Shown in pieces: positions 2,406 to 53,186 of a stretch of 64,000 nt of DNA. The notes under the pieces were generated by a model. That model saw nothing but the letters and a program-made list of their open reading frames with translations, searched no databases and had not been told where the DNA came from. Position 1 is the stretch's first letter, and the number at the start of each line of letters is the position of its first letter. The translations under genes were made by a program, and so were the position numbers. The stretch is from NCBI GenBank assembly GCA_032622095.1, contig CP136067.1, forward strand, positions 61,452,893 through 61,516,892, read 5' to 3'. Source of the DNA: Siphonodentalium dalli. Taxonomy: Eukaryota; Mollusca; Scaphopoda; Gadilida; Siphonodentaliidae.

Positions 2406-3147
2406 ATATCTATTATATATTTTGGAAGATCTGTGTGTGGGGGTGTGTGTGTGTGTGTCTGTCTGTGTGTTCGCGATGAACTCGAAAATGGCCGAGCCGA
2501 TTTCGATGAAACTTGGTATGTGGGGGTATTTTCGGCCGGGGGGGGGGGGGGGGGGTGACATGGGCCTATTAATTTGTCCGTGCGACGTGACCTTGACCTT
2601 GAAATCGGGTCATTTCAAGTCAAACGCCCGAATATCACGGGATTTCGATGAAACTTGGTATGTGGGGGTACCTTCGTATGGGGAGTCTCATAAGCATATT
2701 CATTTGCCCGTGCGACGTGACATTGACCTTGAAATCGGGTCATTTCAAGGTCAAACGCCCGAATATCATGGGATTTCGATGAAACTTGGTATGTGGGGGT
2801 ACCTTCGTATGGGGAGTCTCATAAGCATATTCATTTGCCCGTGCGACGTGACCTTGAATTCGGGTCAATTCAAGGTCAAATCGCCAATTTTGATGGGATT
2901 TCGACGAAATTTGATACGTGGGGTTACTTTTGTCCACTGGGTATTTTGGACGTCGTTAGAGGTCATAACGTTAGATCACGTTAACGCTTAACCGGCCGAT
3001 GCATTTGACTGTTTCAGACGTCTTGGCGATATCTCGGGCACCGATGGTAATTTATCTTTACGTTGAAACTTGATAATTAATGAGCGTGTGTATATGAGGC
3101 GCGTTCATATACTTGAGTGGAAATCAAATCGGGTTAAACTGGCGCTG
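2406..3147 (+). repeat. Penelope pseudo-LTR-like repeat, copy 2, with ~114-bp tandem units
   Basis: This is the second copy of the repeat that starts at 1623. It runs directly into the Penelope-like ORF at 3150. Inside, at about 2575-2930, a unit of roughly 114-120 bp is tandemly repeated about three times; each unit contains GATTTCGATGAAACTTGGTA and CCTTGAA...TCGGGTCA. These units produce long open frames on both strands that look like repeat translation, not genes. A poly-G run lies at about 2539-2555. Confidence 0.6.
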
Positions 3148-3149
3148 AA

Positions 3150-4181
3150 TTGGAAATATTTCATCGAGCATTCAATCAGTGCAATCCTTCAATCCAGTTC
3201 AAAATGGAATTTTCTCACACCGATATCAGCTTTCTCGATGTTACAGTGGAAAACAATGCCGATCAGTTATTCACAAAAGTATTCAGAAAACCTACGGACA
3301 GATTTTCATATCTAAATCCCATTAGTTTTCATCCCGACCACACGAAACAAGCCATTATCTACAGTCAATGCATTCGTTACCAACGCATCAATTCTCAGGA
3401 AAAAGTAAGAGACGAACAGTTCAGTGAACTACGCTCACAATTCTCGAATTTGGGATACGACAGACGTTCGATTAATAAACAATTTGGAAAAGCGAAATGT
3501 TTGGACAGGGAGATGCTCCTTCAATATCGGGACAAAACATCATCAGATCGAGTTCCCCTCGTGGTAAATTACCACCCACAGCTAGAAAAATTACGCACAA
3601 TCACTACATCTCTGAATGGCATTATTACGAGCGACCTTCATCTCAGGAACGTGTTTAACGAAAGGCCGGTTGTCGCCATGAGACAACCACCCAACTTGAA
3701 GCGGAAATTAGTAACAAGTAAGCTACCATCTTCTGGTGGACAGTCACACAATGGTACATTTCCATGTAACAGGCCGAGATGTGGGATGTGTGTGTTAATT
3801 AACAAGGCCGATGTTCTTATGCTCAATGGGCGCGTGTTCCAGAATGTGGGCCAGTTCTCATGTGTCTCAAGTGGTGTTGTGTATATCATTACGTGCGCAA
3901 ATTGTCCAGAAATGCATTACATTGGTGAAACAGGGCAACCTCTCTGCAAACGAGTGACGGGGCATAGGCAGAACATCAACAACAGGGACTTGAACCTACC
4001 CATAGCAGAACATTTCTGTCAACCACACCACACACCCGATGACATCCGCATCAAAGTATTAAGAGGTGGACTTTCGGACATGAAAGAGAGACGTGTGGCC
4101 GAATTACAACATATAGAACTGTTTGGAAGTTTTTATCGTGGCATTAATAAGGACCGTGGTTTCATGGCGAGTTGGTCATAA
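3150..4181 (+). CDS. Penelope-like element, C-terminal RT region plus GIY-YIG endonuclease (5'-truncated)
   Basis: A 343-residue open frame. Residues about 20-90 have the layout typical of the end of a Penelope RT: FLDVTV, then FRKPTDRFSYLNPISFHPDH, then a SQ..RY.RI block. A Cys cluster lies at C206, C211 and C214. The GIY-YIG nuclease core follows: GVVY at residues 242-245, YIGETG at 257-262, and KR...GHR at 267-273, where a catalytic Arg is expected. In Penelope-like elements this nuclease nicks target DNA for reverse transcription. The RT palm with its catalytic aspartates is missing, so the copy is 5'-truncated and cannot be autonomous. The start codon is nominal. The frame is otherwise unbroken, which suggests a fairly young copy. 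The pseudo-LTR-like repeats lie directly upstream. Confidence 0.88.
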   Translation: MEIFHRAFNQCNPSIQFKMEFSHTDISFLDVTVENNADQLFTKVFRKPTDRFSYLNPISFHPDHTKQAIIYSQCIRYQRINSQEKVRDEQFSELRSQFSNLGYDRRSINKQFGKAKCLDREMLLQYRDKTSSDRVPLVVNYHPQLEKLRTITTSLNGIITSDLHLRNVFNERPVVAMRQPPNLKRKLVTSKLPSSGGQSHNGTFPCNRPRCGMCVLINKADVLMLNGRVFQNVGQFSCVSSGVVYIITCANCPEMHYIGETGQPLCKRVTGHRQNINNRDLNLPIAEHFCQPHHTPDDIRIKVLRGGLSDMKERRVAELQHIELFGSFYRGINKDRGFMASWS

Positions 4182-7340: not shown

Positions 7341-7343
7341 ACA

Positions 7344-10300
7344 TATAGGAATCAGGGAGCTAAATGTGTTCTAGAGTCGGGGAGCGAGTACACCGTGGAA
7401 CCCTAAAGGTGAAGGTAACTGAAGAATGACCTTCACCTGATACATGCGACACGTTGTTAAAGGATGACATCGCGTTTATTTGATTTGTACATAATATCTA
7501 AATAATTTAAACTGGTGAATGAATGGGGGAATGGATTTTTGTGAGCGGGAAATTTATTTAACTAGCTGCTGTAGTTCTGGATTTTTCCAGAACAAATTTG
7601 GCTGTGGGATAACCCCGTCGTACACTTGGGGATTTATTTTTAAAAGTAAACACATGACCTATGATTTTTCTTGCATTTTCGTGATCAGCTGGTGTCAATC
7701 TAGCTGGGTAAACATCACTGGTATGGCCTGCAGGCTTCAATTCAGTGAATTTGGCGGAAACGTTAACACTGTCGCCTATGGGAAACCATTTAGTTCAGTG
7801 ATTCCTATAGGAAAAATATGAATTTTACGAAATTTCACGTCTCGCCATGATAAGTTGTTAATTCCATATTTTCTTATTTTCAAATGATAATGACCACATT
7901 TTGGACAGATTTAAAGAAGAAACGCATGGATTCGCCTGTAGATAGTAAAGAAAGTGATAAATCTGGGAATTTTGCATGGACATCAGGTACCATTAGGGGG
8001 TCAGGGGGGCTAAAGCCCCCCTCCCCAAAAATTTGAGTAGTGTTAGCCCCCCCCCCCCATTGGGAAAAGGTGGCAGTTAACCCAATTAAGATTTCCCGGC
8101 ACCCAGTAGCCTTATCGGGGACCGTAGTCCCACCCCAAGTCGGGGGGGGGGGGGTGATGGCATCGCCAGTAGTGTTAATGTCGTGCAAAACTGTCATGGC
8201 AGGTTTGTTAAACAGACATTATGCCCTGCCATCTGGTCAAATTGCATGCCTGAGATTGTGGCTGATGTTGTATAATTATGTTTAGATATTTAAATTGACT
8301 TATAGTTGCTTTATTATGCTATTAAAGTATTTTTTATTTAAATTTTCTGTTAATTTTTGTAAATGTTTATTATAAATTGACAAATTTTGCATGAAAAGGG
8401 TTTAAAATTGGACAAGATATCCCACTCAAAATGTATATTAACATATCCTCTTCAATTTAGTAATAGTATGGTATATAAGGGTATTCTTCAGTTATACGAG
8501 ATGCATCAGCTAGTAAAATTGAAAAAAAAATCAAAATTTTTTGGCTTTATTTTGAGGATTGACACTAATTTTCAGGATGCCTCATATTGGAAAAATAAAC
8601 AACTACTGCTCGATATAATCCATTTTTTATTTCAGTAAGGTCTATATTTTGATAAAATACTATAAGAAACGCTGTGTTTCACACATATACATATATATAG
8701 GAATCAGGGAGCTAAATGTGTTCTAGAGTCGGGGAGCGAGTACACCGTGGAACCCTAAAGGTGAAGGTAACTGAAGAATGACCTTCACCTGATACATGCG
8801 ACACGTTGTTAAAGGATGACATCGCGTTTATTTGATTTGTACATAATATCTAAATAATTTAAACTGGTGAATGAATGGGGGAATGGATTTTTGTGAGCGG
8901 GAAATTTATTTAACTAGCTGCTGTAGTTCTGGATTTTTCCAGAACAAATTTGGCTGTGGGATAACCCCGTCGTACACTTGGGGATTTATTTTTAAAAGTA
9001 AACACATGACCTATGATTTTTCTTGCATTTTCGTGATCAGCTGGTGTCAATCTAGCTGGGTAAACATCACTGGTATGGCCTGCAGGCTTCAATTCAGTGA
9101 ATTTGGCGGAAACGTTAACACTGTCGCCTATGGGAAACCATTTAGTTCAGTGATTCCTATAGGAAAAATATGAATTTTACGAAATTTCACGTCTCGCCAT
9201 GATAAGTTGTTAATTCCATATTTTCTTATTTTCAAATGATAATGACCACATTTTGGACAGATTTAAAGAAGAAACGCATGGATTCGCCTGTAGATAGTAA
9301 AGAAAGTGATAAATCTGGGAATTTTGCATGGACATCAGGTACCATTAGGGGGTCAGGGGGGCTAAAGCCCCCCTCCCCAAAAATTTGAGTAGTGTTAGCC
9401 CCCCCCCCCATTGGGAAAAGGTGGCAGTTAACCCAATTAAGATTTCCCGGCACCCAGTAGCCTTATCGGGGACCGTAGTCCCACCCCAAGTCGGGGGGGG
9501 GGGGGGGTGATGGCATCGCCAGTAGTGTTAATGTCGTGCAAAACTGTCATGGCAGGTTTGTTAAACAGACATTATGCCCTGCCATCTGGTCAAATTGCAT
9601 GCCTGAGATTGTGGCTGATGTTGTATAATTATGTTTAGATATTTAAATTGACTTATAGTTGCTTTATTATGCTATTAAAGTATTTTTTATTTAAATTTTC
9701 TGTTAATTTTTGTAAATGTTTATTATAAATTGACAAATTTTGCATGAAAAGGGTTTAAAATTGGACAAGATATCCCACTCAAAATGTATATTAACATATC
9801 CTCTTCAATTTAGTAATAGTATGGTATATAAGGGTATTCTTCAGTTATACGAGATGCATCAGCTAGTAAAATTGAAAAAAAAATCAAAATTTTTTGGCTT
9901 TATTTTGAGGATTGACACTAATTTTCAGGATGCCTCATATTGGAAAAATAAACAACTACTGCTCGATATAATCCATTTTTTATTTCAGTAAGGTCTATAT
10001 TTTGATAAAATACTATAAGAAACGCTGTGTTTCACACATATACATATATATAGGAATCAGGGAGCTAAATGTGTTCTAGAGTCGGGGAGCGAGTACACCG
10101 TGGAACCCTAAAGGTGAAGGTAACTGAAGAATGACCTTCACCTGATACATGCGACACGTTGTTAAAGGATGACATCGCGTTTATTTGATTTGTACATAAT
10201 ATCTAAATAATTTAAACTGGTGAATGAATGGGGGAATGGATTTTTGTGAGCGGGAAATTTATTTAACTAGCTGCTGTAGTTCTGGATTTTTCCAGAACAA

Positions 10301-10514
10301 ATTTGGCTGTGGGATAACCCCGTCGTACAATTGGGGATTTATTTTTAAAAGTAAACACATGACCTATGATTTTTCTTGCATTTTCGTGATCAGCTGGTGT
10401 CAATCTAGCTGGGTAAACATCACTGGTATGGCCTGCAGGCTTCAATTCAGTGAATTTGGCGGAAACGTTAACACTGTCGCCTATGGGAAACCATTTAGTT
10501 CAGTGATTCCTATA
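7344..10514. mobile_element. E1: direct-repeat (LTR-like) element A-B-A-B-A
   Basis: Flanked by the 4-bp direct repeat GACA (7340-7343 and 10515-10518). Three copies of a 466-bp block A (7344-7809, 8696-9161, 10049-10514) alternate with two copies of an ~886-bp block B, so the period is 1352-1353 bp. A begins TATAGGAATCA and ends TGATTCCTATA, an 11-bp inverted repeat at its ends. The layout matches a tandem LTR retrotransposon array sharing LTRs, but the ends are not TG/CA and B encodes nothing recognisable. Copies differ at very few bases plus poly-G length, so the array is young. A 100-residue frame repeated in each A has no recognisable domain. A stem AAGGTGAAGGT/ACCTTCACCT lies near 7407-7440. 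It sits inside LINE-A ORF1. Confidence 0.8.
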
Positions 10515-10518
10515 GACA

Positions 10519-10699
10519 AAAGCCACCTGTCGGCGACCCAGTGCAACCGAAACAGAACTCCCAATCCGTTAAAGTGAGTGACGCTCAGCTGCCACCAGAT
10601 ACACTAGAGGGCTGGATTAACCTTAATTCAGACAGCGCAGACAAAATAGGCCAAGCCGATGAAGGCGTTGTAAACACGGTAATCCTGGGAGCTAGTAAT
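10519..10699 (+). pseudogene. LINE-A ORF1, linker and SGNH block I (between E1 and E2)
   Basis: In the frame of 10520 this encodes a Gln/Ser-rich linker followed by VVNTVILGASN, which fits block I of SGNH esterases. Compared with the zinc-knuckle part upstream of E1 it is shifted by one base; an extra A in the ACAAAA run at the E1 junction would explain this. E2 is inserted immediately after the AAT codon (10697-10699). Confidence 0.7.
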
Positions 10700-12502
10700 G
10701 GTTACACTGGTGTAAATGTTTTCCATAGGCCTCAGTGCTAACGTTTTAGCGTATGCTGTTGGCTATATGAACCATGGGTCCAATTTTTTTTTTTAATCTG
10801 AAAAATTGACATTTCGGGAAACTTTTTACACAAAAAAATCATATCTGTCTAGCAGGGAATTCGCCTTTAAATCTTGTGTTTTCGTAACTATTGTCAGATC
10901 CGCATAAAAAAATACTGTCATATTTTAGACCACACCAACAAATTCAAACTTCACTACAAAGGGTTAATTCCTGTGCCAATGGCTATCTTACCTATGGGAA
11001 ATCATAGGGAAGAGGTGTGATGATTTTTTTATGCAAAAAGCACACAAGGCTATTGACCAATCAGGGCCCAGTGTCTATTTTATTCTCTCCTATATATTCC
11101 TCCCGCATCCGCTAGAGGTCTCTCCGAACCTTATTTACACCAGTGTAACCTAAAGCGATAGCCCGCTTTTTCGCGGAATAATTGTAACACCCTACATTTT
11201 TTCAGAATTGCCCATGAATGAAAAAAATGTGTTCAAAAATAATATCACTTCTGTGGTTCTTTATTTATCACACACAATTTAACCCCACTCTCTGTAACAC
11301 ATTATTCATCAAAAAAGCACATTTTTCCACCACAAGTCATATTCAGGCCCCATTTTCACACAGTTTTTGGGGTCTGGTGTTGCAAACTTGGATCAGCTAT
11401 GGAAGACTGTACAAGATCCTTTCCATGAGAGAACTTCTGGTGATGTGAGGTCATTGAGTCCAGATCTGATCAGCTGAGCATCAAGCACATGACTTTATCA
11501 GCACATGGAAGACTAAAATATGACATTTTCAGGTCTGCAAGGGTGATCCAAGATAACTGGATGTGGGTGTATATTGAATTAGTTGAACAAAGATATGCTC
11601 TCTTTGAAATGCTGAAGCATTTTCTTAAATGTGTCCAAGTTTTAGTGCTATTAACCTTCAAATGGCCATACCCACCAGTGAAAATGAGACACTTTTATTA
11701 TATATATCTGTATATCACTGGCTATAAAATCCAAAATACTTGTTAGATTAGCTTCTTATAACAATTGGTATGTGTGTCATTGACATGCTCATGTAATGGG
11801 TAATTTGCATTATCATGTGACAATTACCACCTTGAAATTTTTTGAAAATACCTTGAAAAATTGGCATTTTTTATGAAAAATCATACCATTTTTTTGGCCG
11901 ATGGAAGTGAAAGAAGACATCAGCAGCAAGAATAGCCACACCATGCATGGGAGATTCATTGGACTGAAAGACCAGGCTGTGAAAAATGCATTAAAATACT
12001 TTAAAGTGACTCCCAGGAATCAAAAATGACAAAAAGTTCATTTTTCCCTTTAGGTTACACTGGTGTAAATGTTTTCCATAGGCCTCAGTGCTAACGTTTT
12101 AGCGTATGCTGTTGGCTATATGAACCATGGGTCCAATTTTTTTTTTAATCTGAAAAATTGACATTTCGGGAAACTTTTTACACAAAAAAATCATATCTGT
12201 CTAGCAGGGAATTCGCCTTTAAATCTTGTGTTTTCGTAACTAGTGTCAGATCCGCATAAAAAAATACTGTCATATTTTAGACCACACCAACAAATTCAAA
12301 CTTCACTACAAAGGGTTAATTCCTGTGCCAATGGCTATCTTACCTATGGGAAATCATAGGGAAGAGGTGTGATGATTTTTTTATGCAAAAAGCACACAAG
12401 GCTATTGACCAATCAGGGCCCAGTGTCTATTTTATTCTCTCCTATATATTCCTCCCGCATCCGCTAGAGGTCTCTCCGAACCTTATTTACACCAGTGTAA
12501 CC
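10700..12502. mobile_element. E2: direct-repeat (LTR-like) element A'-B'-A'
   Basis: Flanked by the 4-bp direct repeat TAAT (10696-10699 and 12503-12506). Two nearly identical ~451-bp blocks A' (10700-11150 and 12053-12502) enclose a 902-bp block B'. A' starts GGTTACACTGGTGTAAAT and ends with its exact reverse complement, an 18-bp inverted repeat. Removing the element with one TAAT joins codon AAT at 10697 to codon TGT at 12507 in frame through the esterase domain, which confirms the insertion borders. B' contains no recognisable protein. It could be a miniature LTR retrotransposon with atypical ends, or two copies of a TIR element with captured DNA between them. Confidence 0.8.
11055..11098 (+). 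promoter_or_regulatory. CCAAT/TATA-like promoter in the A' repeat
   Basis: GACCAATCAG (11055-11064) is followed by TATATATT (11091-11098) in the 3' part of A'; the same pair recurs in the second copy near 12408 and 12444. The spacing suits a polymerase II promoter, as found in the U3 region of LTRs. AT-rich DNA makes chance occurrence possible. Confidence 0.3.
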
Positions 12503-12506
12503 TAAT

Positions 12507-13094
12507 TGTGTTGGTCTTAACATCGACAAACCAAATATTAAAAACTTCTCTGTCAGTGGTGCAACATTCGCCGAGATAGGAAATCTACTGGATGCTACAA
12601 AAAGTGATGCAACTGTCGGGAAATCACCTGAAGATGTGAGCTCGGTGATCGTTCACCTGGGCACAAACGACCTGACTAAAAACAATCTAAACGCGAGCTC
12701 AGCCATCCTAAACATGACGGAGGCGGTGACGGAAATTGCAGCCGTGTTCCCAAATGCCAGAATGAGCTTGTGCAGTGTTCCCCCACGAAGAGGAAACAGC
12801 ATGAACGCACAGGATCACAATTCAGCAGTCATTGTGGTAAATGACTTTATGTCCAAATATTGCTCCAAGAAGGATAACTTTGAATTTGTGGACAATTACG
12901 ACCAATTCTCTACTACGGATGGAGTAAGGAAGGAATTATTCAGTGAAAAGGACAAAAGGGGGATACACCTGAGCCCAGTCGGTAGAGATAAACTCACTGA
13001 TTCATTCATTCAAGCAAGTGCGAAGGGCAGCAGGAAAATAGGTCCACATTTCACACCACCAGAACCTAACAAACAGGCAAAGGTATATGCCTGA
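12507..13094 (+). pseudogene. LINE-A ORF1, SGNH esterase domain
   Basis: This continues the frame from 10699 after E2. It carries VIVHLGTNDLTK, matching the esterase GxND block III, and GIHLSPVGRDKL near the C-terminus, matching the DxxH-type block V region (here R-G-I-H). Esterase domains of this type occur in ORF1 of CR1/L2-like LINEs and may act on membranes or help multimerise the ORF1 protein. It ends at TGA 13092-13094. That stop could be the true ORF1 end, because the next frame has a different composition. The open part starts at 12636 by convention, but the coding similarity begins at 12507. Confidence 0.8.
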
Positions 13095-13097
13095 TGT

Positions 13098-14633
13098 GTG
13101 AAGGATGGGGAAAATGACTCATTGTTTTATAATAATAACTCATACAATAATGCTATACAACCCATAACCCAAATTCAGTGTTTGATTGATGGCAATCGAA
13201 CCGATGGCTTGAACCGAAAGATCACACATGACATTAGTGGAAATTATTTAAACAATCAAGAAACGCAACTTACCCAACCACGTACAGAAAATATAAACAA
13301 TTATAACAATTATACTGACCCACCCTTATCTCAGATGCTAATGCAGTCACGAGAACTATTATATGGAACCATAATGCCAGTATACCACATAAATAATATA
13401 GATAATGGTCCACAAAATGACGCTGTCAACAACATTTATACTGGTCCTATTAATATGCACGACGATTCCACAGAAAAGTACCCATATACAACTGTAAACT
13501 ACTCCCATGTATGGGATCCGCATAATATTAAGTATTTCGTGTACCCAGAGAAACGAGTGTTTGATATAAATGAAATGATGTCAATGTGTGATCTCCAGGT
13601 CCAAGCAACACATGTGTTGACAAATGAACAGAATAATGATGTACCATCCGTATCGTATCAAGTTATACAGAATGCATTTACTGAACCGCTTGAATCCAAC
13701 CACAACCCGGTAACGATACCACAACGCGATAAAATGGTAAAACCCATCGGCGGGGAATCACCGCCGACCAAAATAGTTAGCCTAGAAACTAGGTCATGTC
13801 CTTTTGTTTGTAAACAGTCTCGTCATACAGGTGACGACCCGAGTCCGTCTGTGGAAAGCGATAGTACAACCGCAGCGAGTCATGTACTGACAACAACAGC
13901 AATTAAATTATCTATTCAGAACCACTCCGGCGATGACCTATATCCTATTTCGGAAACCGATAGTACAACCACAGCGAGTCAATCGTGGACAACGGCAACT
14001 GCTGCTGATCGGTCCACTCAGGCACAAGCCGAAATGGCTGTCGAATGCAGTCGGGTGAAGGTCGGCTTCACACCCGATCGGTTACCAGATAATACCAATG
14101 CAACAATAAATAATAGAACACGCGCTAGAAACGACAGTTCATTGAACTTATCACAAATACTCGGTGAAACAAGGCGTATTCTAGACCATAATGTTGTTAA
14201 CCCTCTCGATAGTGAGCACTACGAAATCACACGGGGATTTAACAATAATTATAAAAATGATAACTACTATATGAGCCCAAATGACGAAATAATTTCTTAA
14301 ATAGATGACAGTTTATATACATGTAGTGGCATGTTGGGAACCTATCCAAATCGAAATTATGCCCCCTTTATTGGGGAAATACCTATGTTACAACCCTTGA
14401 ACTCTAAGCACAGTTATCATACTGTTGAATATGATAGTCAAGGTATGGGGAATCCGAACAAATGTTTATATAATACAGAGGGGCACAACTCGATCCAGTC
14501 AGAGTTGAACCCTCCAATTTCTCTTAAACAGAATTTACAGAAACCCGAAAACCAGCAAACATATATGAATTTTCCATACGAAACACAAAATGACTATGAT
14601 TATGAAGAGATAAAAAAAACGTATACTTTCTGA
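13098..14633 (+). pseudogene. LINE-A extra Asn-rich ORF between ORF1 and ORF2
   Basis: Open at 13098-14300 and again at 14331-14633 in the same frame. The stop at 14298-14300 (TAA) is GAA in the duplicated copy at 17.45 kb, so the original frame was continuous for about 511 residues. The protein is rich in Asn, Thr, Tyr, Pro and Ser, with repeated short motifs (a DSTT(A/T)AS type occurs twice). I recognise no domain, transmembrane segment or catalytic motif. It follows the esterase frame after a single stop codon, so it could be a long disordered C-terminal extension of ORF1 rather than a separate protein. Confidence 0.65.
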
Positions 14634-14656
14634 TAGCCCTGACACTGGTGTACATG
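13880..14656 (+). repeat. Left copy of the ~770-bp direct repeat flanking LINE-B
   Basis: Nearly identical to 17043-17811. The borders coincide with the ends of LINE-B: similarity stops at ...GTGTACATG (14656) and starts at TCATGTACTGAC (13880). The few differences seen are about seven substitutions and one small indel near 14080. Confidence 0.9.
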
Positions 14657-17042
14657 AATTTCGGAAATGAATTTTGATGTTAAATGTACAGAGATCCATT
14701 GGATATAGCCCAAGGTTGGCAACATTACTTTACTTCGCTCTACAAACGCACTCCTCACTCTGATCCGAACTTTGAACAGTCTATTCACTCACAGGTTAAC
14801 ATTCTACTCAACAGTAACCTCCCTGATAGCGAGGAAACCTGTCTGACGAGTCTAGTCTCCATGGCAGAATTAACCGAGGCTATTAAATTTATCAAGCCCA
14901 ATAAGGCAGCTGGTATTGACAGAGTTGTAAATGAACATATTCTGAACTCTCCGCCGGAATTTCTTAACGTATTGTGCAAACTATACTCGCTAATGTTAAA
15001 ACATACCCACATCCCTCCCGATATGAAAAGGGGGATTATCGTACCAATATTCAAAGGTGACCCAAAGCCAGTACATGCCCCGGACAGTTATCGCGCAATC
15101 ACGCTTCTACCAGCCCTTTACAAACTTTTCGAGATAATTGTCCTCGATAGACTCCGATGTAGCAATATATTCAAGAACTTTCCAACCTCTATGCAGAACG
15201 GATTTCAGAGGGGCGTCGGTTGCTCAATAACCACATTCGAGCTACAGGAAGCCTGTGCGTATGCAGAATGCAACGGGTCTCGAGTATATGCAGCGTTCCT
15301 TGATTCAAAGAAAGCCTTTGATCGCGTTTGGCATGAAGGGCTCATCTATAAATTATCTCAAAAAGGTGTAACGGGCGCTATGCTCAGAGTCATTTCAAAC
15401 ATGTACTCAGATGTACAGAGCCATGTTCTCTGTAATGGGATAACATCGGAAGCCTTCATGGTGGAGCAAGGAACAAGGCAAGGAGGGGTAATGTCGCCCT
15501 TCTTGCATCTTGTCTTTATTGATGAACTTGTGGAATCCCTGTCAGATACACATGATGGCGTTCACATTAGCTCTATTTCATGTTCGTCCCCTACGACGGC
15601 TGATGACATAACTATTCTCTCATTCACAGACGGAGGTCTCCGTAGACTCCTCAACATATGTCACCTATATAGTTTAAAGTGGCGCTTCGAGTTCTCACAC
15701 GAGAAAAGCAAAGTTGTTGTAATTGGCACCTCCCAATGCCGGCGTCACACTGAGGATAGACCATGGGAGCTCGGACCCAGACATATCGCCAAAGTAGAAG
15801 AAGTCTCTCATCTGGGTATTATTCAGAGCTCGTCTGGTAAACAGAATCCGAAAGTTGAGAAGGCTACTGATATGCTACGCAAAGTATTCTTCTCAGCTTG
15901 TCGCTCACCTGTTACAACCGAGTTCTCTCCTTTAACCAACCTAAAGATTCTTAAACATATCGTTATTCCCAAAGCTCTTTATGGCTGTGAATCATGGTGG
16001 GATTTGTCACATACGCAATATACCATGATAGAACGCGCTTATCGCATGTGTGTTAAGAATTTACAGCGCATTCCGAAACGCAGTAATACAATATTATCCC
16101 TATCACTACTCGGACTTCTCCCTATAGAGTACGAAATTCAGCGGAGAAAATTATTGTTTCTTGGAACACTGATTAACTTACCACGGAATCACAGAGCAGC
16201 TCTGGATGTATTCCTATTCAATTATCACGGTAATCGAATATACGGTCGCCCGATGACAGGATTTCTAAAAGATATATCTGATACTCTCCATAAATTCAAC
16301 TTATACCATTATCTTCCATCTTTTACGGAAACGGGTTTCTTCCCTACCCAGTCCACTTGGAAGAAAATTGTCAGAGATTGTCTCTCTGCTCACTACTCAC
16401 GCGAGGTGAGTCAGCGTGGTCAGAGAGACGATTCTCTGTCTTTTCTCTTGAAGGTAAAACCCGACAACCAGTCACTGTGGAAACTTTGGCAGCTCTCTCG
16501 AGAAGAACCTGAGTATTTTCCAATTTGTATCAAGATGGCCAATATTTTGACCAAAACCACGTATGACAATGACGCTGAATGCAATCGCTGCAACCAAACA
16601 TATTCAAATTTCTTGTTTCATAGATATCTCGAATGTACATCTGAGTTTGCACAGATGGTACGGAACACATTTTGGTATTCACTGATTGACATATTTGGAA
16701 TTGAAACTTTTACATTTCTTGACAGCATGAATAGCGATACATTCCTTGCGTTTTGCCTAGGAGGGTGTATCCCAATGCAAATTGAACTGATTTGTGATGA
16801 ATATCGTCTTTTCAAACGATGTGTGAGGTTTATTTTCATCCTGTGTTCTGACTAAGTTTTATGATATCGGATACTTCACTATATATTTGTCTTAAAAATC
16901 TTGTCTTGCAGTATATCATTCCCACAATGAATTTCTCAAGTTAAATTATATTGCATGTGTATATATGTCTTCATGTAACTTTTGTATATATATATTGTAC
17001 CATAATGGTCTCCATATTTGGAGGAATAAACATATCTCTCTC
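14657..17042 (+). mobile_element. LINE-B copy 1, 5'-truncated non-LTR retrotransposon
   Basis: A 2386-bp insertion in LINE-A. It starts abruptly upstream of the RT domain, without an endonuclease, and ends in AATAAACATATCTCTC with a CT-rich tail instead of poly-A. The last ~190 bp is non-coding 3' UTR. The same tail appears in reverse at 53256, where the second copy lies. Flanking direct repeats of about 770 bp are far longer than usual LINE target duplications. Confidence 0.88.
14684..16855 (+). CDS. LINE-B reverse transcriptase (ORF2 C-terminal part)
   Basis: An intact 723-residue frame. RT landmarks: PNKAAGIDRV (about residue 83), AAFLDSKKAFDRVW with the motif-A Asp at 207, QGTRQGGVMSPFL (motif B), and TADD at 305-308 where most LINEs have YADD or FADD. 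A Cys/His finger follows at C633, C636, H646, C651 (C-x2-C-x9-H-x4-C), as is common at LINE ORF2 C-termini. The product would copy LINE RNA into DNA at a nicked target. The N-terminal endonuclease is missing through 5' truncation. The same TADD occurs in the second copy at 53-55 kb, so Thr is a family trait, not a mutation in this copy. The frame is otherwise undamaged, suggesting recent insertion. Confidence 0.9.
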   Translation: MYRDPLDIAQGWQHYFTSLYKRTPHSDPNFEQSIHSQVNILLNSNLPDSEETCLTSLVSMAELTEAIKFIKPNKAAGIDRVVNEHILNSPPEFLNVLCKLYSLMLKHTHIPPDMKRGIIVPIFKGDPKPVHAPDSYRAITLLPALYKLFEIIVLDRLRCSNIFKNFPTSMQNGFQRGVGCSITTFELQEACAYAECNGSRVYAAFLDSKKAFDRVWHEGLIYKLSQKGVTGAMLRVISNMYSDVQSHVLCNGITSEAFMVEQGTRQGGVMSPFLHLVFIDELVESLSDTHDGVHISSISCSSPTTADDITILSFTDGGLRRLLNICHLYSLKWRFEFSHEKSKVVVIGTSQCRRHTEDRPWELGPRHIAKVEEVSHLGIIQSSSGKQNPKVEKATDMLRKVFFSACRSPVTTEFSPLTNLKILKHIVIPKALYGCESWWDLSHTQYTMIERAYRMCVKNLQRIPKRSNTILSLSLLGLLPIEYEIQRRKLLFLGTLINLPRNHRAALDVFLFNYHGNRIYGRPMTGFLKDISDTLHKFNLYHYLPSFTETGFFPTQSTWKKIVRDCLSAHYSREVSQRGQRDDSLSFLLKVKPDNQSLWKLWQLSREEPEYFPICIKMANILTKTTYDNDAECNRCNQTYSNFLFHRYLECTSEFAQMVRNTFWYSLIDIFGIETFTFLDSMNSDTFLAFCLGGCIPMQIELICDEYRLFKRCVRFIFILCSD

Positions 17043-17811
17043 TCATGTACTGACAACAACAGCAATTAAATTATCTATTCAGAACCACTCCGGCGATGAC
17101 CTATATCCTATTTCGGAAACCGATAGTACAACCACAGCGAGTCAATCGTGGACAACGGCAACTGCTGCTGATCGGTCCACTCAGGCACAAGCCGAAATGG
17201 CTGTCGAATGCAGTCGGGTGAAGGTCGGCTTCACACCCGATACATAATACCAATGCAACAATAAATAATAGAACACGCGCTAGAAACGACAGTTCATTGA
17301 ACTTATCACAAATACTCGGTGAAACAAGGCGTATTCTAGACCATAATGTTGTTAACCCTCTCGATAGTGAGCACTACGAAATCACACGGGGATTTAACAA
17401 TAATTGTAAAAATGATAACTACTATATGAGCCCACATGACGAAATAATTTCTGAAATAGATGACAGTTTATATACATGTAGTGGCATGTTGGGAACCTAT
17501 CCAAATCGAAATTATGCCCCCTTTATTGGGGAAATACCTATGTTACAACCCTTGAACTCTAAGCACAGTTATCATACTGTTGAATATGATAGTCAAGGTA
17601 TGGGGAATCCGAACAAATGTTTATATAATACAGAGGGGCACAACTCGATCCAGTCAGGGTTGAACCCTCCAATGTCTCTTAAACAGAATTTACAGAAACC
17701 CGAAAACCAGCAAACATATATGAATTTTCCATACGAAACACAAAATGACTATGATTATGAAGAGATAAAAAAACCGTATACTTTCTTATAGCCCTGACAC
17801 TGGTGTACATG
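17043..17811 (+). repeat. Right copy of the ~770-bp direct repeat flanking LINE-B
   Basis: Duplicate of 13880-14656. It holds a second copy of the LINE-A Asn-rich ORF C-terminal part; the frame 17297-17791 is open and reads through the position that is a stop in the left copy. An 8-bp-scale deletion near 17240 breaks the frame upstream of that. Confidence 0.9.
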
Positions 17812-17932
17812 TACCTGTACATGGCCTAAGCCATATACACACACAAAATGCACAGGTAACCAAATGCACACAAAGAACTGAATATACACACCGAGAAACT
17901 CCACACAATTAAATTATGGAGAACTGAAAATA

Positions 17933-20900
17933 TTGGCATTCAATGTCTGTGGGCTGAGAAAAAAGCTCCTATATCCTGAATTTAGAGAATTGTGTGAAAG
18001 CCATGATATACTATGTTTCTCTGAAACTAAAACAGTTAATTGTGATGAATTGAATCTCCCTGGTTATACATTCTATATGAAAAATAGAACCCAACTCTCT
18101 AGAGTAAGATCGGGTGGTATTGCAATCGGGGTTAAAACTGATCTGATAAGCTCAACCCGAATTATAGAAACAAAATGCCCGTATGTGCACTGGGCTGAGA
18201 TACAAGCAAGCTCCCACACACACAGTGAATGTAAGATATTGGTTGGATCGGTTTATATTCCACCCGAAAGTAGTAGGTATGCATCAGAGGAAGCATACAC
18301 ACAAATTTTGAATGATTGCTTAACTTTGAGGGAAGATACAACTCGTGTTTTTATAACAGGTGACTTTAACGCACGAACATCAAACAACGCTGATTATATA
18401 ACAACCGATGAAAGGAACCTCGATATACCGGAAATTGAAGAAACCTCAGTTGATACATCAATATACCTAGATGTAGCTGGTTTACCAAAAGAAAGGTTTA
18501 ACCAGGACAGAGTCAAAAACTCACAGGGACAAAAACTTTTACAATTTTGTAAATGTAATGAATTTTTCATTGCTAATGGACGAGTCGGAAACGATTTTGG
18601 TGTTGGAAAACTCACCTGCCGCGACGCATCTACAGTTGATTATATGGTATGCTCGGCTGAAGCTCTTCAATTGTTAAAACAATTCACAGTTGGAACATTC
18701 TGTAACTTATATTCCGACGAACATTGCCCCATTACAACGGAAATTACTCTGCCCATTGCCAATCCGGTACCGGTACCACATACCAATACAAATAGTAAAA
18801 AAAACTATTAGAAATTGGGAAGAGCGAAAGTCCAGTGAATTTACACTGAACCTAGATCCAAGTAGCATTAATAATGCAAATTTACTCCTTGATCAGATCG
18901 AAAGCGACACATCTAGATCCCAGGATATTAACCAAGTGGTGATCATGGTATCAAACTTGCTATTAACTGCAGCTGATAATACCTTTAGCAGACCAGTAAA
19001 CAAAAAGAGTCGAAAAACACACCGCAATAATAAACCATGGTTTACAAAATCATGCTGGTCTGCAAGAAAAGAGTATAGGAAGGCCGTTAGACGCTATAAA
19101 AAATCCCCCCGTGGATAAATGAAGCAGTATATGCAGGACAAATCAAGTGAATATAAAAGAGAAATGAATACTGCTATAGGAAAACATAGAGAGAAAGCAT
19201 CCAAAGAAATAGCACACATGAAATATAAAAACCCAAAGAAATTCTGGGCCTCTCTAAATAACCGCGTGAAAAACAAGGCACCACCCATTGAAATAGGCAA
19301 ATTTGAAGAATATTACCGAGAGTTAAATAGTGCAGTACATGATAGCAATGACACTGCCACTCAAATGGAGCTTTCAGATAGCAATGAATCACTAAATAAA
19401 CCAATCAGTATAGATGAACTTAAAAATGCACTGCATGGCTTGAAGAATAATAAAGCCTGTGGACAAGATATGATATTAAATGAATATCTTAAAGCATCAT
19501 CAGATAAACTGTTAAACATATATGTTAGAGTATTTAACCATGTACTGAACTCTGGATGTATACCAGATGCATGGGGTATAGGGACCATTGTCCCTATTTA
19601 TAAAAATAAAGGTGACCCAAAGAACTATAGGCCTATCACAATCCTAAGTTGTTTTGGTAAACTATTCACAAAAATTCTCTCAAATAGGCTGTATGAATTT
19701 TTAGAAAATAATGACATTCTTCAGGTAAACCAAGCAGGGTTCCGAAAGGATCACTCGACGATTGATAACTTATTCATATTGCATATGTTAGCAGAATTGA
19801 CAAAGAATATAAATTCCAACCTTTACTGTGCCTTTATAGATTTTGAGAAGGCATTCGATAGAGTTTGGAGACATGGCCTATGGCAGAAACTATTGTCATA
19901 TGATGTCAATGGAAAATTCTTCCAGGTCATTAGAAATATGTATCAGAACATCAAATCCTCTGTCAAGTCAGGAAATGAACATTCAGCATTCTTCCCATGC
20001 TTATCAGGAGTGAGGCAGGGCGAAAATCTATCGCCGGTCCTATTTTCTCTATTCCTCAATGACCTAGAGAAGTTTATGATAAACGAGGATATTGTAGGCC
20101 TCAAGAAAATATCAAATCAGATCGAAGAAGAATTGAATACTTATATGAAATTGATTATAATTTTATACGCGGATGATACAGTGCTTATGGCTGAGACCCC
20201 AAAAAAATTACAAAAGGAACTAGATTCCTTTAGAAAGTATTGTAAGACTTGGAAACTTACTGTGAATATAAACAAAACAAAAATCTTACTAATGTCCAAG
20301 CGTAGTTTACCACGTAACACTCATTTCTATTTAAACGGTATTAAACTTGAAGTAGTAAAAAAATTCAACTACTTGGGAATTGAACACACAAAATCTGGTT
20401 CGTATTCAGAAGCAAAACATATACTTGCAACAAAAGGGATCCATGCAATGTACACCGTGATAAAAAAATCCAGAGTAAATTGCCTCTCAATAGCCAACCA
20501 ATTTGATCTATTTGACACCCAAGTGCTACCAATATTACTGTATGGCTGTGGGGTCTGGGGTTATGGTGATAACCAGACCCTTGAAAATGTCCACAAAAAG
20601 TTTCTTAAACATGTCCTGAATTTGAAACAATCAACCCCCAATTATATGATTTATGGTGAATCAGGAAGATTCCCATTGGAACTCACAATAAAATTAAGAC
20701 TTTTGAAATATTGGTCGAAAGTTATAAACATGCCCAATAAACAATATGGGAAAGTCCTCTATGAGTTAACACTGAAACTTTTAAGTGAAGCAAATGAACG
20801 CACCTTTAAGTGGACAAGAGAAATTAAACAAATCTTGTCTAGCTGCGACCAACCCCAATTATTGACTGCTGGTAAATTGCACTGTGCAGACCAATTTTTA

Positions 20901-21362
20901 GACTGTGTGAAAAGAAGCCTTATCAGGGACTATAAAATTAAGTGGGCAACCGAACGTGACACCTCAAGCAGAGGTAAGATATATCGTATATTCAAACACG
21001 ATATCAATTTTGAAAAATATTTGGATACCCTAGAAAGTAGAAACAGAACTGAATTATGTAGACTCAGAACAGCGAATCATAACCTCCCAATTGAAACTGG
21101 GAGATGGAATGGGACAAATCATAAAGATAGAAAATGTCCCCTATGTACACACAAAATGATTGGAGATGAGTTCCATTATTTACTAGAATGTACAAAATAT
21201 AGACAAATAAGGGAGAAAATCGTCCCAGAAAAAAACCGTGGAAAAGCAAACATTATGATGATGAACGAAATTTTGAATTCACAAAACCCATCAACTCTAA
21301 ACCAAGTATGCAAGCTCATGAGGAAGGTTCATAAGGATCTCTCTAATGTACCACAATCTTGA
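17933..21362 (+). pseudogene. LINE-A ORF2: apurinic endonuclease plus reverse transcriptase
   Basis: The endonuclease is open to 18811, with N4, E31, GDFNA at residues 143-147 and SDEH near 261-264 as expected catalytic positions; it would nick the target strand. The frame shifts at an A8 run (about 18797-18804) into 18690-19118, then meets an in-frame TAA at 19116-19118 and continues from 19119. The RT part (747 residues from 19119) has AFIDFEKAFDRVW with the motif-A Asp at 241, RQGENLSPVLFSLFLND (motif B), YADD at 350-353 and a finger at C673, C676, H686, C691. Upstream of 17933 the frame stays open without an ATG (ELKILAFNVCGL). One frameshift and one stop are enough to inactivate it; the catalytic residues are kept. 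Confidence 0.9.
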
Positions 21363-23400
21363 ATTACTTTCCATACTCCACGTCACTTTACACGGTACTT
21401 GGTTTTAAATATGTTATTATTACCCCCCCCCCCCCCACTTCATTCTAATGTTGAACTTGATATACTAAATGCATGCAGTAACCATTGACTGGCATAGAGA
21501 TGCACCATGCTATGCCATACATGTGCATTATGCAGATTATAATCAACATACTGCACTATGTGTGACATGGAGTGCTGCATATTCATATGTGTACAACCGG
21601 TACTACTGGAAATTTTTATGATATGCATCATCAGCAGATCAACCCTTAATATGGTAGATACACACACACCAAGTAGGGTTGTTATGTATATATTCTAGTG
21701 ATATCAAGTTATATGTATTGAAAATTTGAAAAACTGATCACTTAATTTTCAAGTTACTTTAAACTATAGGTCTTAATTAATATTAATTAATATATTGTAT
21801 AATTATTGTTGATGATGGTGCACCTAGCAAAAATTATCATGACTATAAAATAATGGATATCAACCAGCTGTTAGCAAATCACACTTATTCCAGGTCGCAA
21901 ATGACCTACTGACCAACACAGAGACAGTAGAAAGGCAAAAGCAATAACACAGTGTGATCGCGAAGCTTAGCTTGACACTGACAGCGATACAGGCGAAATG
22001 TAATTCTATGCAGCTCCATTCACCGAGTATCTGCACTGAGTGAATAGAATCATTATGCCCAATTTTATGAATACTACCAGGAACAACATTTAATTAACAG
22101 ACTGGTATATAACTCACATCTGTTTATAGACGATTAACGTAATTAAATACACAATTACCGTCGAACTTCGAATCCAACTCGACTCATGATCCATTTCGGA
22201 ATTCGCGTAGAAAAACGTACTGTAAAGTCGTCGTACAAAAAAACAAACAAACAAACAAAATTGTTTAGTGTAATCTCGATTTCCCCATTGCACCGGAGAC
22301 ATGTATATAGTATGTGTATATATCTTCATATCCTTTTGTAAATATCACTCTGTATTTCTCAATATTCATTTGTAATCATGAGAATAAAGTATCAATCAAC
22401 CCAATTGTCTGTCTGTCACTCACAGGGCTCCTGCACAATGCATGTTTATGATGACATTGTATTTATGACGGTCGAGGTTTATGAGCACCAAGTGTAAGAC
22501 AATAGCTTAAAGATACGGTTGGCCTTGGCGGTGGGTATCCTGTGAAAATATTTTCACCCGTCAAAAACCGCCACAAACAGAAAGAACATCAAAATGTAGA
22601 CAGACTTTGTCCGTATACAAATAAGAAATATCGCATAAACAGTATGTTATTGTCATATATTTGACCATTGTTTTGTAAACAAAAGCTTAAAAAGTTACTT
22701 TTCTGGTGTTTGTTTATATTATGATGGTAAACATAAAGAGCGTTCTTTGTTGGTGAATTCCTGATATGGAACTAATAAAGAGCGTTTATGCCATTTGTGT
22801 GTGATTAGCCAGTATCATTGTGCTATCTTCTGTAACACAATCAGGCTCTTGCTTAGGTAAAATATAGTAGGTCTTTATGATAACATGCTGTTTACGCGAT
22901 GGTCATGGTATATATGGACGAAACTGTAGGCGTTTTAATGTTTTTCTGTTTACGGTGATTGGAACAAATATGAATATTTTCGACAACTAAGGCCTCACGT
23001 GCCTTTAATCAGCCAAATGTGAATCACGACAGATATTTTGTGGCTATTTGTCGTCAATACCGATACAGTCAAAATAATATGCATGCTTTTATGACATATT
23101 TTAATTTGATAATGGCGTAACAATATTAAGTTATTAGTTTCCAGATATCACTTAGATATTTTCGCAAGGATAAATGATTTAAAAAAAGATATTGATATAA
23201 AACAAAAAAATAATGGCATTAAGAAGGACATTCCCGGGTTACCCCCCCCCCCAATCACTCTTTCACATAAAGATTAATACATTTTTAATAAATGATATAT
23301 ATAAAAATACTTCTAGTTCATCAAAATTATTTAAAGTATTGTGTATTTTATACCTGTGTCTGTTAGATTTTACGTTTTAGTAATTAATTGTGAACCGACC
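21363..23400. other. LINE-A 3' region and right arm of hAT-A, non-coding
   Basis: No coding region is supported. A poly-C run lies at 21424-21437 and an (AAAC)n run at 22235-22259. GAGAATAAAGTATCAATCAA at about 22380-22399 looks like a polyadenylation signal with a short tandem tail. It could be the LINE-A 3' end or another truncated element. A second poly-C run is at 23242-23252. Confidence 0.5.
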
Positions 23401-23850: not shown

Positions 23851-24189
23851 AGAGGCGATCACGGGGACCCTCTCCCGTCCTAGCCAGTGTCAACTGCGAC
23901 GTTACTGCGTCACCAATCGGTTCTTGGGTACCTTAGTGCGCTTTGCTCGGCGCTTTGATAATTTACAGCGCAATGCAAGCCCCGGCCTGATCGCAGTTGA
24001 GTGTGACAGTGATTTAATCGGACAGCTAATCTATTGCGGATTGTTTGGTATATTCCCAACAAACTAAAAACTGACTATGACTGGAGAACGCAGGAGACGC
24101 TATTTATTAGATATGGCAAGAAACGTGGTCAAATTTATTTTGGTACTCATATTTTGAGGGGCTAAGTGCTAAGTGCAACTGAATCAAGA

Positions 24190-25535
24190 ACATGGCGTAT
24201 CAAACTGAATTCTAGCAGTGCTATGCTACTAAACTGCTAAGGAATGAAAATATTAAAAAAGAGAGTTTCAAACTGAATTCTAGCGGTGGTATGCTGCTAA
24301 ACTGCTAACGAATGAACATATTAAAAAAGAGAGTTTCAAACTGAATTCTAGCAGTGCTCTGCTGCTAAACTGCTAAGGAATGAAAATATTAAAAAAGAGA
24401 GTTTCAAACTGAATTTTAGCAGTGCTCTGCTGCTAAACTGCTAAGGAATAAAAATATTAAAAAGGAGACTTTCAAACTCAATTCTAGAAGTGCTATGCTG
24501 CTAAACTGCTAAGGAATGAAAATATTAAAAAAGAGAGTTTCAAACCCAATTCTAGCAGTGCTCTGCTGCTAAACTGCTAAGGAATAAATATATTAAAAAG
24601 GAGAGTTTCAAACTCAAATCTAGCAGTGCTATGCTGCTAAACTGCTAAGGAATGAAAATATTAAAAAAAGAGAGTTTCAAACTCAATTCTAGCAGTGCTA
24701 TGCTGCTAAACTGCTAAGGAATGAAAATATTAAAAAATAGAGTCTCAAACTGAATTCTAGCGGTGATATGCTGCTAAACTGCTAAGGAATGGAATTATTG
24801 GAAAAGAGAGTTTCAAACGGAATTCTAGCGGTGCTATGCTGCTAAACTGCTAAGGAATGAAAATATTAAAAAATAGAGTCTCAAACGGAATTCTAGCAGT
24901 GCTATGCTGCTAAACTGCTAAGGAATGAAAATATTAAAAAAGAGAGTTTCAAACTGAATTCTAGCAGTGCTATGCTGCTAAACTGCTAAGGAATGAAAAT
25001 ATTAAAAACGAGAGTTTCAAACTCAATTCTAGCAGTGCTATGCTGCTAAACTGCTAAGGAATGAAAATATTAAAAACGAGAGTCTCAAGCTGAATTCTAG
25101 CGGTGCTATGCTGCTAAACTGCTAACGAATGAACATATTAAAAAAGAGAGTTTCAAACTGAATTCTAGCAGTGCTATGCTGCTAAACTGCTAAGAAATGA
25201 ACATATTGAAAACGAGAGTTTCAAACTCAATTCTAGCAGTGCTATGCTGCTAAACTGCTAAGGAATGAAAATATTAAAACAGAGATTTTCAAACTGAATT
25301 CTAGTAGTGCTATGCTACTAAACTGCTAAGGAATGAAAATATTAAAAAAGAGAGTTTCAAACTGAATTCTAGCAGTGCTATGCTGCTAAACTGCTAAGGA
25401 ATGAAAATATTAAAAAAGATAGTTTCAAACTGAATTCTAGCAGTGCTCTGCTGCTAAAATGCTAAGGAATGAAAATATTAAAAAATAGAGTCTCAAACGG
25501 AATTCTACCGGTGCTATACTGCTAAACTGCTAACC
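24190..25535 (+). repeat. 68-bp satellite (Sat-68), plus orientation, about 20 copies
   Basis: The unit contains GAGTTTCAAACTGAATTCTA, then GCAGTGCTATGCTGCTAAAC, then TGCTAAGGAATGAAAATATT. The TAGCAG...CTGCTA segment is an imperfect dyad. Copies are highly similar with single-base variants. The reverse-oriented partner array is at 39770-40240. Confidence 0.93.
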
Positions 25536-26595
25536 AAGGGCGATATGTCTCTCTAGCCAGTTACATTAGACACAATAGTTGGTCATGGTGGTTGTTCAGT
25601 TTATCTAGGCAGTAATCTCGATGCATATAGCTACCAATGACGGCTAGTCTATAAACAGCTATTGATAATAGTCACTATAGCCAATCAGGGTGGTATATCT
25701 ATATTGCCAGTTACATTAGTCACTGTAGCTAGTAGTGATGGCTATTTAGTACATGTGGGCAGCAATATTGATCAAAGTAGCTATAAGTGTATAATATTCT
25801 ACACAGTAAGCTAGTAAATGTAGTCACTATAGCTAACATGGGTGGTAAGTCTATCTAGCTAGTTAATCAGTCACTATAGCTAGCCATTGTGGTTAATCAG
25901 TACATGTGGGCAGTAGTATTGATCAACATAGCTAGCTATAGCGGATAATCGTTCCAGAAAGCTAGTAAGTGTAGTTACTCAAGCTAACCTGGGTGTCAAG
26001 TCTATCTAGACAGTTAATTATTCATATAAACAGTCATTGTGTATGCCTATAGCTAGTCATGGTGGTTATTCAGTATATATGGGCAGTTATATAGATCAAA
26101 GTAGCCAGATAGGAAGATAGGCTATACCACAAGCTAGTAATAGTAGTCACTGCAGCTAGCCAGGGTGGTAAGTCTATCTAGCCAGTTACTGTAGTCATAA
26201 TGGCTAATCATGGTGGTTGTGCAATTTAAATAGGCAGTAATAATAATCAATATAGCTAGCACTGGCGGATGGTCTATATATCCGGCTAATAATAATAGTC
26301 ACTATAGCTCACCAGGGTGGTAAGTCTATTTAGTGAGCTACATTGGTTACTATATTTAGTCATTGTGGTAATTCAGTACATATGGACAGTAATATCGATC
26401 AAAGTGGCTAGCTATGGTGGATAATCTGTACAGAAAAGCTGGTAAGTGTTGACATCATAGCTAACCATTGTGGTAAGTCTATCTAGCCAGTTCCATTAGT
26501 CACTATAGCTGGTCATGATGGTCACAAAGTTTATACGGGCAGTAGTATTTATCAATGTAGCTAACTATATCTATCAAGCCAGCATGTAATACTAG
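25536..26595 (+). repeat. ~151-bp tandem repeat, seven degenerate copies
   Basis: The marker GGGTGGTAAGTCTATCTAGC recurs near 25548, 25688, 25839, 25990, 26161, 26313 and 26464, mostly 151 bp apart. Between markers are CACTATAGCTAG, GGTGGTTATTCAGTACAT and GGGCAGTAATATTGATCAA. Only this left-hand array is present in the window. Confidence 0.85.
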
Positions 26596-39600: not shown

Positions 39601-39769
39601 TCAAGGATGTGTGAACTATTTCATTTTCCTAGTTGGAGTAATTCCCTGATAAGCATTTGTAACTATGTAACAAATACACGTACGGGTGAAATATTTTCAT
39701 TTTTCTAGTTATGAGTAATTCTCTGATTTCCAAATGTAACTATGTAACAGTTTGAGACTCATTTTTTTC

Positions 39770-40240
39770 AATATTTTCGTTGCTTGGCAGTTTAGCAGCA
39801 TAGAACCGCTAGAATTCAGTTTGAAACTTTCTGTTTTAATATTTTCATTCGCTAGCAGTTTAGCAGCATAGTACCGCTAGAATTGAGTTTGAAACTCTCT
39901 TGTTTGATATTATTATTTCTCAGCAGTTTAGCAGCATAGCACCGCTAGGATTGAGTTTGAAACTCTCTTTTTTAATATTTTCATTCCTTAGCAGTTTAGC
40001 AGCATAGCACTGCTAGAATTGAGTTTGAAACTCTCTGTTTTAATATTTTCATTCGTTAGCAGTTTAGCAGCATAGCACTGCTAGAATTCAGTTTGAAACT
40101 CTCCTTTTTAATATTTGTATTCCTTAGCAGTTTAGCAGCATAGCACTGCTAGAATTGAGTTTGAAACTCTCTTTTTTAATATTTTCATTCCTTAGCGGTT
40201 TAGCGTCATAGCATTGCTAGAATCGAGTTTAAAACTCCCT
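39770..40240 (-). repeat. 68-bp satellite (Sat-68), minus orientation, about 7 copies
   Basis: Reverse complement of the array at 24190-25535 (marker GTTTAGCAGCATAGCACTGC). A spacer before it (39617-39765) contains a ~75-bp duplication with CATTTT(C/T)CTAGTT and TGTAACTATGTAAC. Confidence 0.92.
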
Positions 40241-40345
40241 TTTCTCCCGACTTTGATATAGCAGTTAGCACCTAAAAATACGATTACCCAAACAAATTTG
40301 ACCACGTTTCTTGCCATATATGCTATTTATACTCTCCGCGCCCGC

Positions 40346-52059: not shown

Positions 52060-53186
52060 ATTTAATCCGTAATTTCACAAGAGAACCACCATAATCAGAT
52101 GGTATAAGTATAAAAGAAGTGAACACTTTGAGATTATTGCCGTCGAAAAGAGGCACACCAAAGTTGAAATTGATATGAACGCTGGCAATCAAACATTCAA
52201 TTATCAGTGATCAAGTAGTGTGATTAATTCGTCGCGTAAATTTTGGCCATTGAAATGTGTACACACAGGGTACACACAGTGATCAACTGATCGCTCCACT
52301 GTCGCAGCAGGTGTTCCAGAAATATTTCGCATGTACTGTGGCACGAGTTGTTAGTTTCTGAAACTACATTTCTTTGCAAATGTTAGCTCGATCTAGTCTT
52401 GTTGATTTTTCTTGGTTCGTATGCACCTAAGTACTGATGGGTAATTATCAGTAAATGTAATGGCAGAGCAGTACTACCTGAAGGAGTTTTTATGCAGCAT
52501 CGGAATCCCCGTTTATATCGCAAATAGTATTGAATAGTTTCAATGTACATTTTAGGCACGCGGTATATATGTGTGGTCATATGGCATGATGCTGCTATGA
52601 CCGCTGTCATTTCAATAGCAGAAGTAATTTAGGTTATCGAGAAATAATTTTAATGGCTAAATGTCTGACAACCAATGGTTTTATTATATTCTGTGGATTG
52701 ACAGCTGATGATTAAATTGTACATTATTATATTGCAAATTCAATGTTTATTTGTGTAAGGTTTGGTGTGGCGGGCGATAATGACGCTGTAGCTCAACTTT
52801 AGCTATTGCGAATTTTGTCAGTGCTTGATTTATGGAGTTATGGCCCTTAAACCGGCCTCTCACATTTATCGACAATTGTAGAGTATGTCTGGAACGCATT
52901 GAGGTAGCGGAACGGGACAAATATTATGGTATAGAGCAATTTAAACGTGGTTCAGTTCTACAAAATGGACGTTGTCCGATTATTGATCGCGGAGTGGGGC
53001 AGGGTGTTCAAAGTCGTAAAAAATAAATTCTCTCCCATTGCGACCAAACTATTTGATAACGATGCCGTGAACATTTTGTAAATCGGTCCAAAATTTACCG
53101 AGTTACCGGCCCCTGAATGTTCAAAAATAATAAATATCTCTCCCTAATGGAGGAAAATAGCTAATGGAAGAGCTGGAGCGCGGGAT
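52060..53186. other. Non-coding, nothing recognised
   Basis: No supported gene. A 64-residue open frame (52832-53026) has no recognisable domain. Confidence 0.5.

Follow-up and report, generated by a model that had tools for sequence, protein, structure and literature searches.

The stretch of DNA analysed here (the window) comprises 64,000 nucleotides of the scaphopod mollusc Siphonodentalium dalli (assembly GCA_032622095.1, contig CP136067.1, positions 61,452,893 to 61,516,892 of the forward strand), and window positions below are counted from its first letter. It contains a long interspersed element (LINE), LINE-A, into which a second one, LINE-B, has been inserted. LINE-A lies on the forward strand at positions 12503 to 22400. 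It is 5'-truncated and consists of the remnant of an SGNH/GDSL open reading frame 1 (ORF1), an APE endonuclease frame and a reverse transcriptase (RT) frame, all with Pfam matches; it is colinear with two other LINE-A copies, L001 and L002, and its ends were placed by comparison. LINE-B, also 5'-truncated and on the forward strand, occupies positions 14660 to 17042, has the 3' end ATATCTCTCTC and carries an RT frame at 14684-16855 (RVT_1, E=2e-24). On both sides of LINE-B, self-alignment of the window found the same part of LINE-A. The left copy (13880-14656, 777 bp, forward strand) lies within the LINE-A ORF1, and the right copy (17043-17811, 769 bp, forward strand) runs on into the remaining LINE-A. 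The two copies are near-identical direct repeats, as the first-pass annotation had claimed; they align end to end with 98% identity, the differences being a few substitutions and a net gap of 8 bp.

The borders of this duplication coincide with the ends of LINE-B, in agreement with the same annotation. The left copy stops at 14656 and the inserted DNA starts at the next base, while the right copy begins at 17043, immediately 3' of the LINE-B end ...AATAAACATATCTCTCTC. The three nucleotides AAT at 14657-14659 are probably filler at the 5' junction, because 17 other LINE-B copies align only from position 4 of the query (14660) and just one aligns from position 1 (14657).

It is important to know whether the target was single before LINE-B arrived. 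The 777-bp stretch is found in 12 places of the genome, just four of them at 96% identity or higher, and two of these four are the window pair. Since LINE-A is of low copy number, chance pairing of the flanks is excluded. L001 contains the whole stretch once, and L002, which is 5'-truncated inside the stretch, contains its last 723 bp once. In both, LINE-A is uninterrupted between the equivalents of positions 14656 and 17812, which represents the empty site. The target was therefore a single copy before the insertion, and it is confirmed that a single-copy LINE-A target was duplicated with its borders at the LINE-B ends. A tandem LINE-A duplication predating LINE-B is ruled out by the single stretch in L001 and L002; no such duplication without LINE-B was found among the 12 places either. 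A separate 5'-truncated LINE-A insertion beside LINE-B is also ruled out, because LINE-A is of low copy number and the right copy resumes LINE-A exactly where the left one ends. At its 5' end (12503) LINE-A adjoins a tandem array of 1353-bp units (7343-12505), which stops there and has no listed match past the LINE-A 3' end.

LINE-B has many close copies, of which the best 40 of 1087 candidates were scored. A full-length element is about 5.4 kb or slightly more in length and encodes ORF1, an APE endonuclease (Exo_endo_phos, E=2e-9 in a full-length copy) and RT. The copies are truncated to various extents at the 5' end, with start points from 1 to 737, and share a common 3' end (2383-2386) in 37 of 40 places. 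The endonuclease and RT domains, together with the shared 3' end and the differing extent of truncation at the 5' end, identify LINE-B as an APE-type non-LTR (long terminal repeat) retrotransposon. The usual active-site box of RT is (F/Y)xDD; in the LINE-B frame 14684-16855 this box is TADD, likewise in the copies L003-L005 and in a second LINE-B copy of the window. The latter is located on the reverse strand at 53251-54893 and has 96% identity to 15406-17045. Comparison of its flanks found a target duplication of 66-72 bp, with one copy at its 3' end (53184-53255, reverse strand) and the other at its 5' end (54894-54965, reverse strand).

A set of independent insertions was assembled for the family. 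Two of the 40 LINE-B places lacked the 3' end, and the remaining 38 were reduced to 31 events by merging segmental or tandem copies (C6:17689253/15852673, C2:27100916/26659768, four copies on C8, C9:182532022/179199432 and C6:144742728/144740078). Ten of 18 further 3' ends and the second window copy were added, giving 42, from which C9:180296878 (incomplete 3' end) and C9:103310830 were removed, leaving 40 informative independent insertions. The apparent 5' junctions of C9:103310830 and C9:99054292 proved to be later insertions within LINE-B; the former was dropped from the count, and the latter was re-measured at its true 5' end, where no duplication was found. Duplications were looked for by comparison of the upstream flank (about 0.9-6.2 kb) with the downstream flank (1.2-1.5 kb).

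Fifteen of the 40 insertions, 14 of them clear and one doubtful (C8:68011508), have duplications of about 70 to 1617 bp reaching up to the LINE-B ends, so that a target duplication of hundreds of bases is indeed tied to LINE-B insertion, as the window had suggested. The sizes are 777 bp in the window, 248, 445, 309, ~680, 173, 1617, ~880, 166, ~757, ~970, 435 and 264 bp, 66-72 bp in the second window copy and ~88 bp in C8:68011508. The median is about 435 bp, and 13 of the 15 exceed 100 bp, with one at 1617 bp. The other 25 insertions have no duplication reaching the junctions within the searched flanks. The short duplication of about 5-20 bp usual for LINEs was found in none of the 40 (nor, consequently, in the 25), whereas an ordinary short duplication in most copies would have spoken against the first reading of the window. 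The missing short duplication is treated here as an outcome of integration, not as a trait defining APE-type LINEs. Among the 25 duplication-free copies a single 4-bp match was seen, as in mismatched pairs of flanks, and duplications of 3 bp are outside this test.

Several of these loci deserve comment. In C8:68011508, a full-length copy, a later insertion has apparently split the right copy of the ~88-bp duplication. The left copy is separated from the LINE-B homology by 672 bp which have no explanation unless LINE-B is longer at its 5' end. The left duplication copy in C7:31007840 is split by ~3.4 kb, and its first 200 bp are outside the compared DNA. At C6:144.74 Mb (L010, L011, L028, L029) the order is duplication-LINE-duplication-LINE-duplication, in a tandem whose unit measures ~2650 bp; long target duplications would be expected to give this pattern by unequal crossing-over. 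The pair C7:144554644 and C7:144557454 (L118, L112; C7:144.555 Mb) forms a 2.8-kb tandem with LINE-B, bounded by a ~288-bp repeat present three times; it was ruled out as a second tandem of the same layout, its borders being this repeat and not the LINE-B ends. Matches of 74-93% between flanks which stop short of the junctions (for example C5:91998953, C7:180363659, C1:176851654, C8:188195846 and C7:35008582) were judged to be dispersed repeats.

Both junctions were tabulated for 11 duplications. In nine of them the left flank has no relation to LINE-B; the TC tail is followed directly by the right copy, whose first base or bases are T or C and assignable to either. The remaining two have no clean start: C6:144740078 is nested in the tandem and C7:31007840 is interrupted. 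Microhomology at the 5' joint was read by hand in 12 of the 15 duplications (left out were C2:168917873 with mismatches at the joint, C8:68011508 and the second window copy), and it is at least 2 bp long in 8 of the 12, compared with 16% expected at equal base frequencies (p=1e-4). The filler in C5:104473254 repeats 22 bp from the target beside it as well as 8 bp of LINE-B, which looks like template switching between the cDNA end and the target. The window duplication, after one T possibly derived from the tail, begins with CATGTAC and ends with GTACATG. By eye, with no statistical test, no common motif was seen at the far junction in the other 10 of the 11 tabulated duplications.

The insertions without duplication were examined by a joined-flank search for the empty site in 15 of the 25 copies. 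It was readable in four, where the target is a repeat: C8:143356984, C9:182532022, C4:232030126 and C4:264001990. For C9:182532022, 29 copies of the repeat have the two flanks separated by 106-115 bp, 25 of them by exactly 107 bp (all 64 rows used). The separation for C4:232030126 is 133-134 bp in 36 of 36 copies. After allowing for bases shared at the joint, these values correspond to target deletions of about 105-107 bp and 126-133 bp, respectively. The other two insertions are near-blunt. At C4:264001990 the joint is crossed in 40 of 40 scored places, and the matches covering the whole query range from 8 bp below to 14 bp above its length. For C8:143356984 the reading comes from two places (81-82% identity) and is uncertain by 11 bp. 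The search gave no answer for C4:35952615, C7:2248121, C9:170157540, C3:130362869, C7:28290322, C4:228755855, C1:116806160, C7:180363659, C1:77337203, C1:176851654 and C9:99054292. The last of these was queried at the false joint, across which one place on C5 ran; it was not counted. At least some of the LINE-B insertions lacking a duplication are therefore blunt or accompanied by a deletion.

LINE-A served as a control in the same genome. In none of 10 LINE-A copies does a long duplication extend to the junctions within 1.2 kb. Exact short matches in them do not exceed 6 bp, so that a duplication of 3-6 bp is possible. The empty-site search on four LINE-A insertions was readable in three, the fourth having no match. 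For C8:166883247 there are 33 continuous places, which depart in length from the query by no more than about 10 bp and in many cases by no more than 2 bp; C9:85453849 has four within about 5 bp, and C1:52440017 has three which are 21-24 bp longer than the query, near a poly-C run. The three readable LINE-A insertions are near-blunt, and therefore the long duplications look specific to LINE-B, although the control is small.

Thus in a single family long duplications, near-blunt joints and deletions occur together and no short duplications were found, while the right copy starts at the TC tail wherever this is readable and the 5' joints are rich in microhomology. We consider it probable that LINE-B is inserted with no fixed position for the second strand, the cDNA end being joined by annealing or template switching which is uncoupled from the first nick. 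First-strand synthesis would proceed by target-primed reverse transcription from a nick, the end of which pairs with the (TC)n tail. The cDNA end may then anneal through a few matching bases, or switch template, to whichever exposed or sister-strand position of the target is reached. The site of joining would not be set by the first nick and could be about -130 to +1600 bp away. A join downstream of the nick would duplicate the DNA in between (about 70-1617 bp observed), one at the nick itself would be blunt, and one upstream of it would cause a deletion (about 105 and 130 bp observed). A stronger proposal is that LINE-B has lost or never had coupled second-strand cleavage. Its cDNA end would then normally be joined to any microhomologous position within about 1-2 kb, and deletions and dispersed segmental duplications would be by-products; in our judgement this proposal stands at even odds.

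Both nicks could also be made by the LINE-B endonuclease, the second one on the opposite strand at a distance of hundreds of bases, with the long 3' overhangs filled in to give the duplication. The CATGTAC...GTACATG ends of the window duplication agree with this, since after the T assignable to the tail both nicks could sit in one motif on opposite strands. However, the other 10 far junctions share no such motif by eye, and nicks placed downstream do not by themselves explain the two deletions and the two near-blunt insertions. We regard this mechanism as unlikely, and it is not favoured over uncoupled, annealing-driven joining. It corresponds to the widely separated nicks offered by the first-pass annotation, which fit poorly for the same reasons, while the template-driven repair offered beside them fits better. 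Some peculiarity of repair in the host, such as weak nucleotide excision repair (NER), might instead produce long duplications for all LINEs of this species. The size spectrum resembles that of human L1 in NER-deficient cells (XPA, XPC, XPD), for which PMC5223499 gives duplications of 5 bp to 5.3 kb with a median of 1495 bp and some deletions, its authors proposing a distant second nick. The LINE-A copies, with no long duplication in 10 and near-blunt empty sites in three of three, argue against it, and such a host effect also seems improbable. A further possibility is unequal crossing-over or a local tandem duplication, in which LINE-B was carried along or happened to insert at the junction; the C7:144554644/C7:144557454 pair with its ~288-bp bordering repeat is in its favour. 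As a general explanation it is very improbable in view of 14 clear, separate loci with differing flanks and with borders at the LINE-B ends, and of the single stretch in L001 and L002. Least credible of all is an artefact in which the assembly collapsed or duplicated flanks around a repeat. A single assembly is the source of the data, but the duplication copies differ by substitutions and indels (including the 8-bp net gap in the window), one of the two copies at C7:31007840 was later split by another insertion, and the phenomenon recurs at the 14 clear loci with sizes of about 70 to 1617 bp.

Some points weigh against uncoupled joining as the explanation and against its specificity. The LINE-B sample consists of the best-scoring matches and is not random. 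Duplications extending beyond the searched flanks could be hidden in some of the duplication-free copies, and the empty site was read for just four of these 25, leaving 21, of which the search covered 11. For LINE-B the term near-blunt is precise only to about 10-14 bp, and among the near-blunt LINE-A sites one of three is off by 21-24 bp. Within 1.2 kb, 14 of 40 LINE-B insertions have duplications compared with 0 of 10 for LINE-A (Fisher p=0.045), a comparison with a small control. Finally, a distant pre-existing nick and copying from the sister strand both fit the far joining.

L2/CR1-type LINEs have a 3' tail of short repeats, and some RTE elements produce long, variable duplications of up to a few hundred bp. 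Duplication lengths peak by clade at 13-15 bp for L1, 3-5 bp for L2 and CR1 and 10-12 bp for RTE, and the second-strand step is an open question between specific-cleavage and random-cleavage models (PMC4245944). LINE-B resembles the zebrafish ZfL2-1 and ZfL2-2 elements (L2/CR1-type) in coding capacity, with an ORF1 and with endonuclease plus RT in ORF2, and in its 5' joints, which have microhomology and extra bases taken from the flank (PMC4245944). This is a likeness of structure and junctions. LINE-B does not have the peak of 3-5 bp given for L2/CR1 or that of 10-12 bp given for RTE (PMC4245944), and its duplications reach 1617 bp. Like L1 in NER-deficient cells, LINE-B has duplications mostly above 100 bp (13 of 15), one above 1 kb, and some deletions; however, the L1 case needs a mutant host cell (PMC5223499), while here natural copies of one family are involved and the readable LINE-A insertions of the same genome are near-blunt. 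For L1 the norm is 5-30 bp (PMC5223499). L1 in HeLa cells gives 5'-truncated inserts with long duplications and deletions, and also short duplications (Gilbert et al., as cited in PMC5223499, PMC4245944 and PMC2912911), the truncated inserts having extremely long duplications and deletions (PMC2912911). Duplications above 100 bp never exceed 10% in HeLa (PMC5223499), whereas 13 of 40 LINE-B insertions are above this length. Distant joining is thus known for human L1 in repair-deficient cells (PMC5223499), and LINE-B would be a natural family doing so often. We found no natural LINE family described with long duplications as the norm, in a literature covered mostly as bibliographic entries and with subscription journals sparse.

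The occurrence of LINE-B, with duplications of about 70 to 1617 bp, beside near-blunt LINE-A offers a comparison within one host of ORF2 proteins which set, or fail to set, the second site. Elements of the LINE-B type would also be a source of recombination-prone duplications of 0.1-2 kb, for which the layout at C6:144.74 Mb may be compared.

Two other features of the window may be mentioned. Arrays of ~68-bp units are located at 24111-25537 and 39749-40319, in opposite orientation and with about 85-92% mutual identity. An open frame of 347 amino acid residues lies at 3138-4181 and has a putative resemblance to the C-terminal part of Penelope-like elements.

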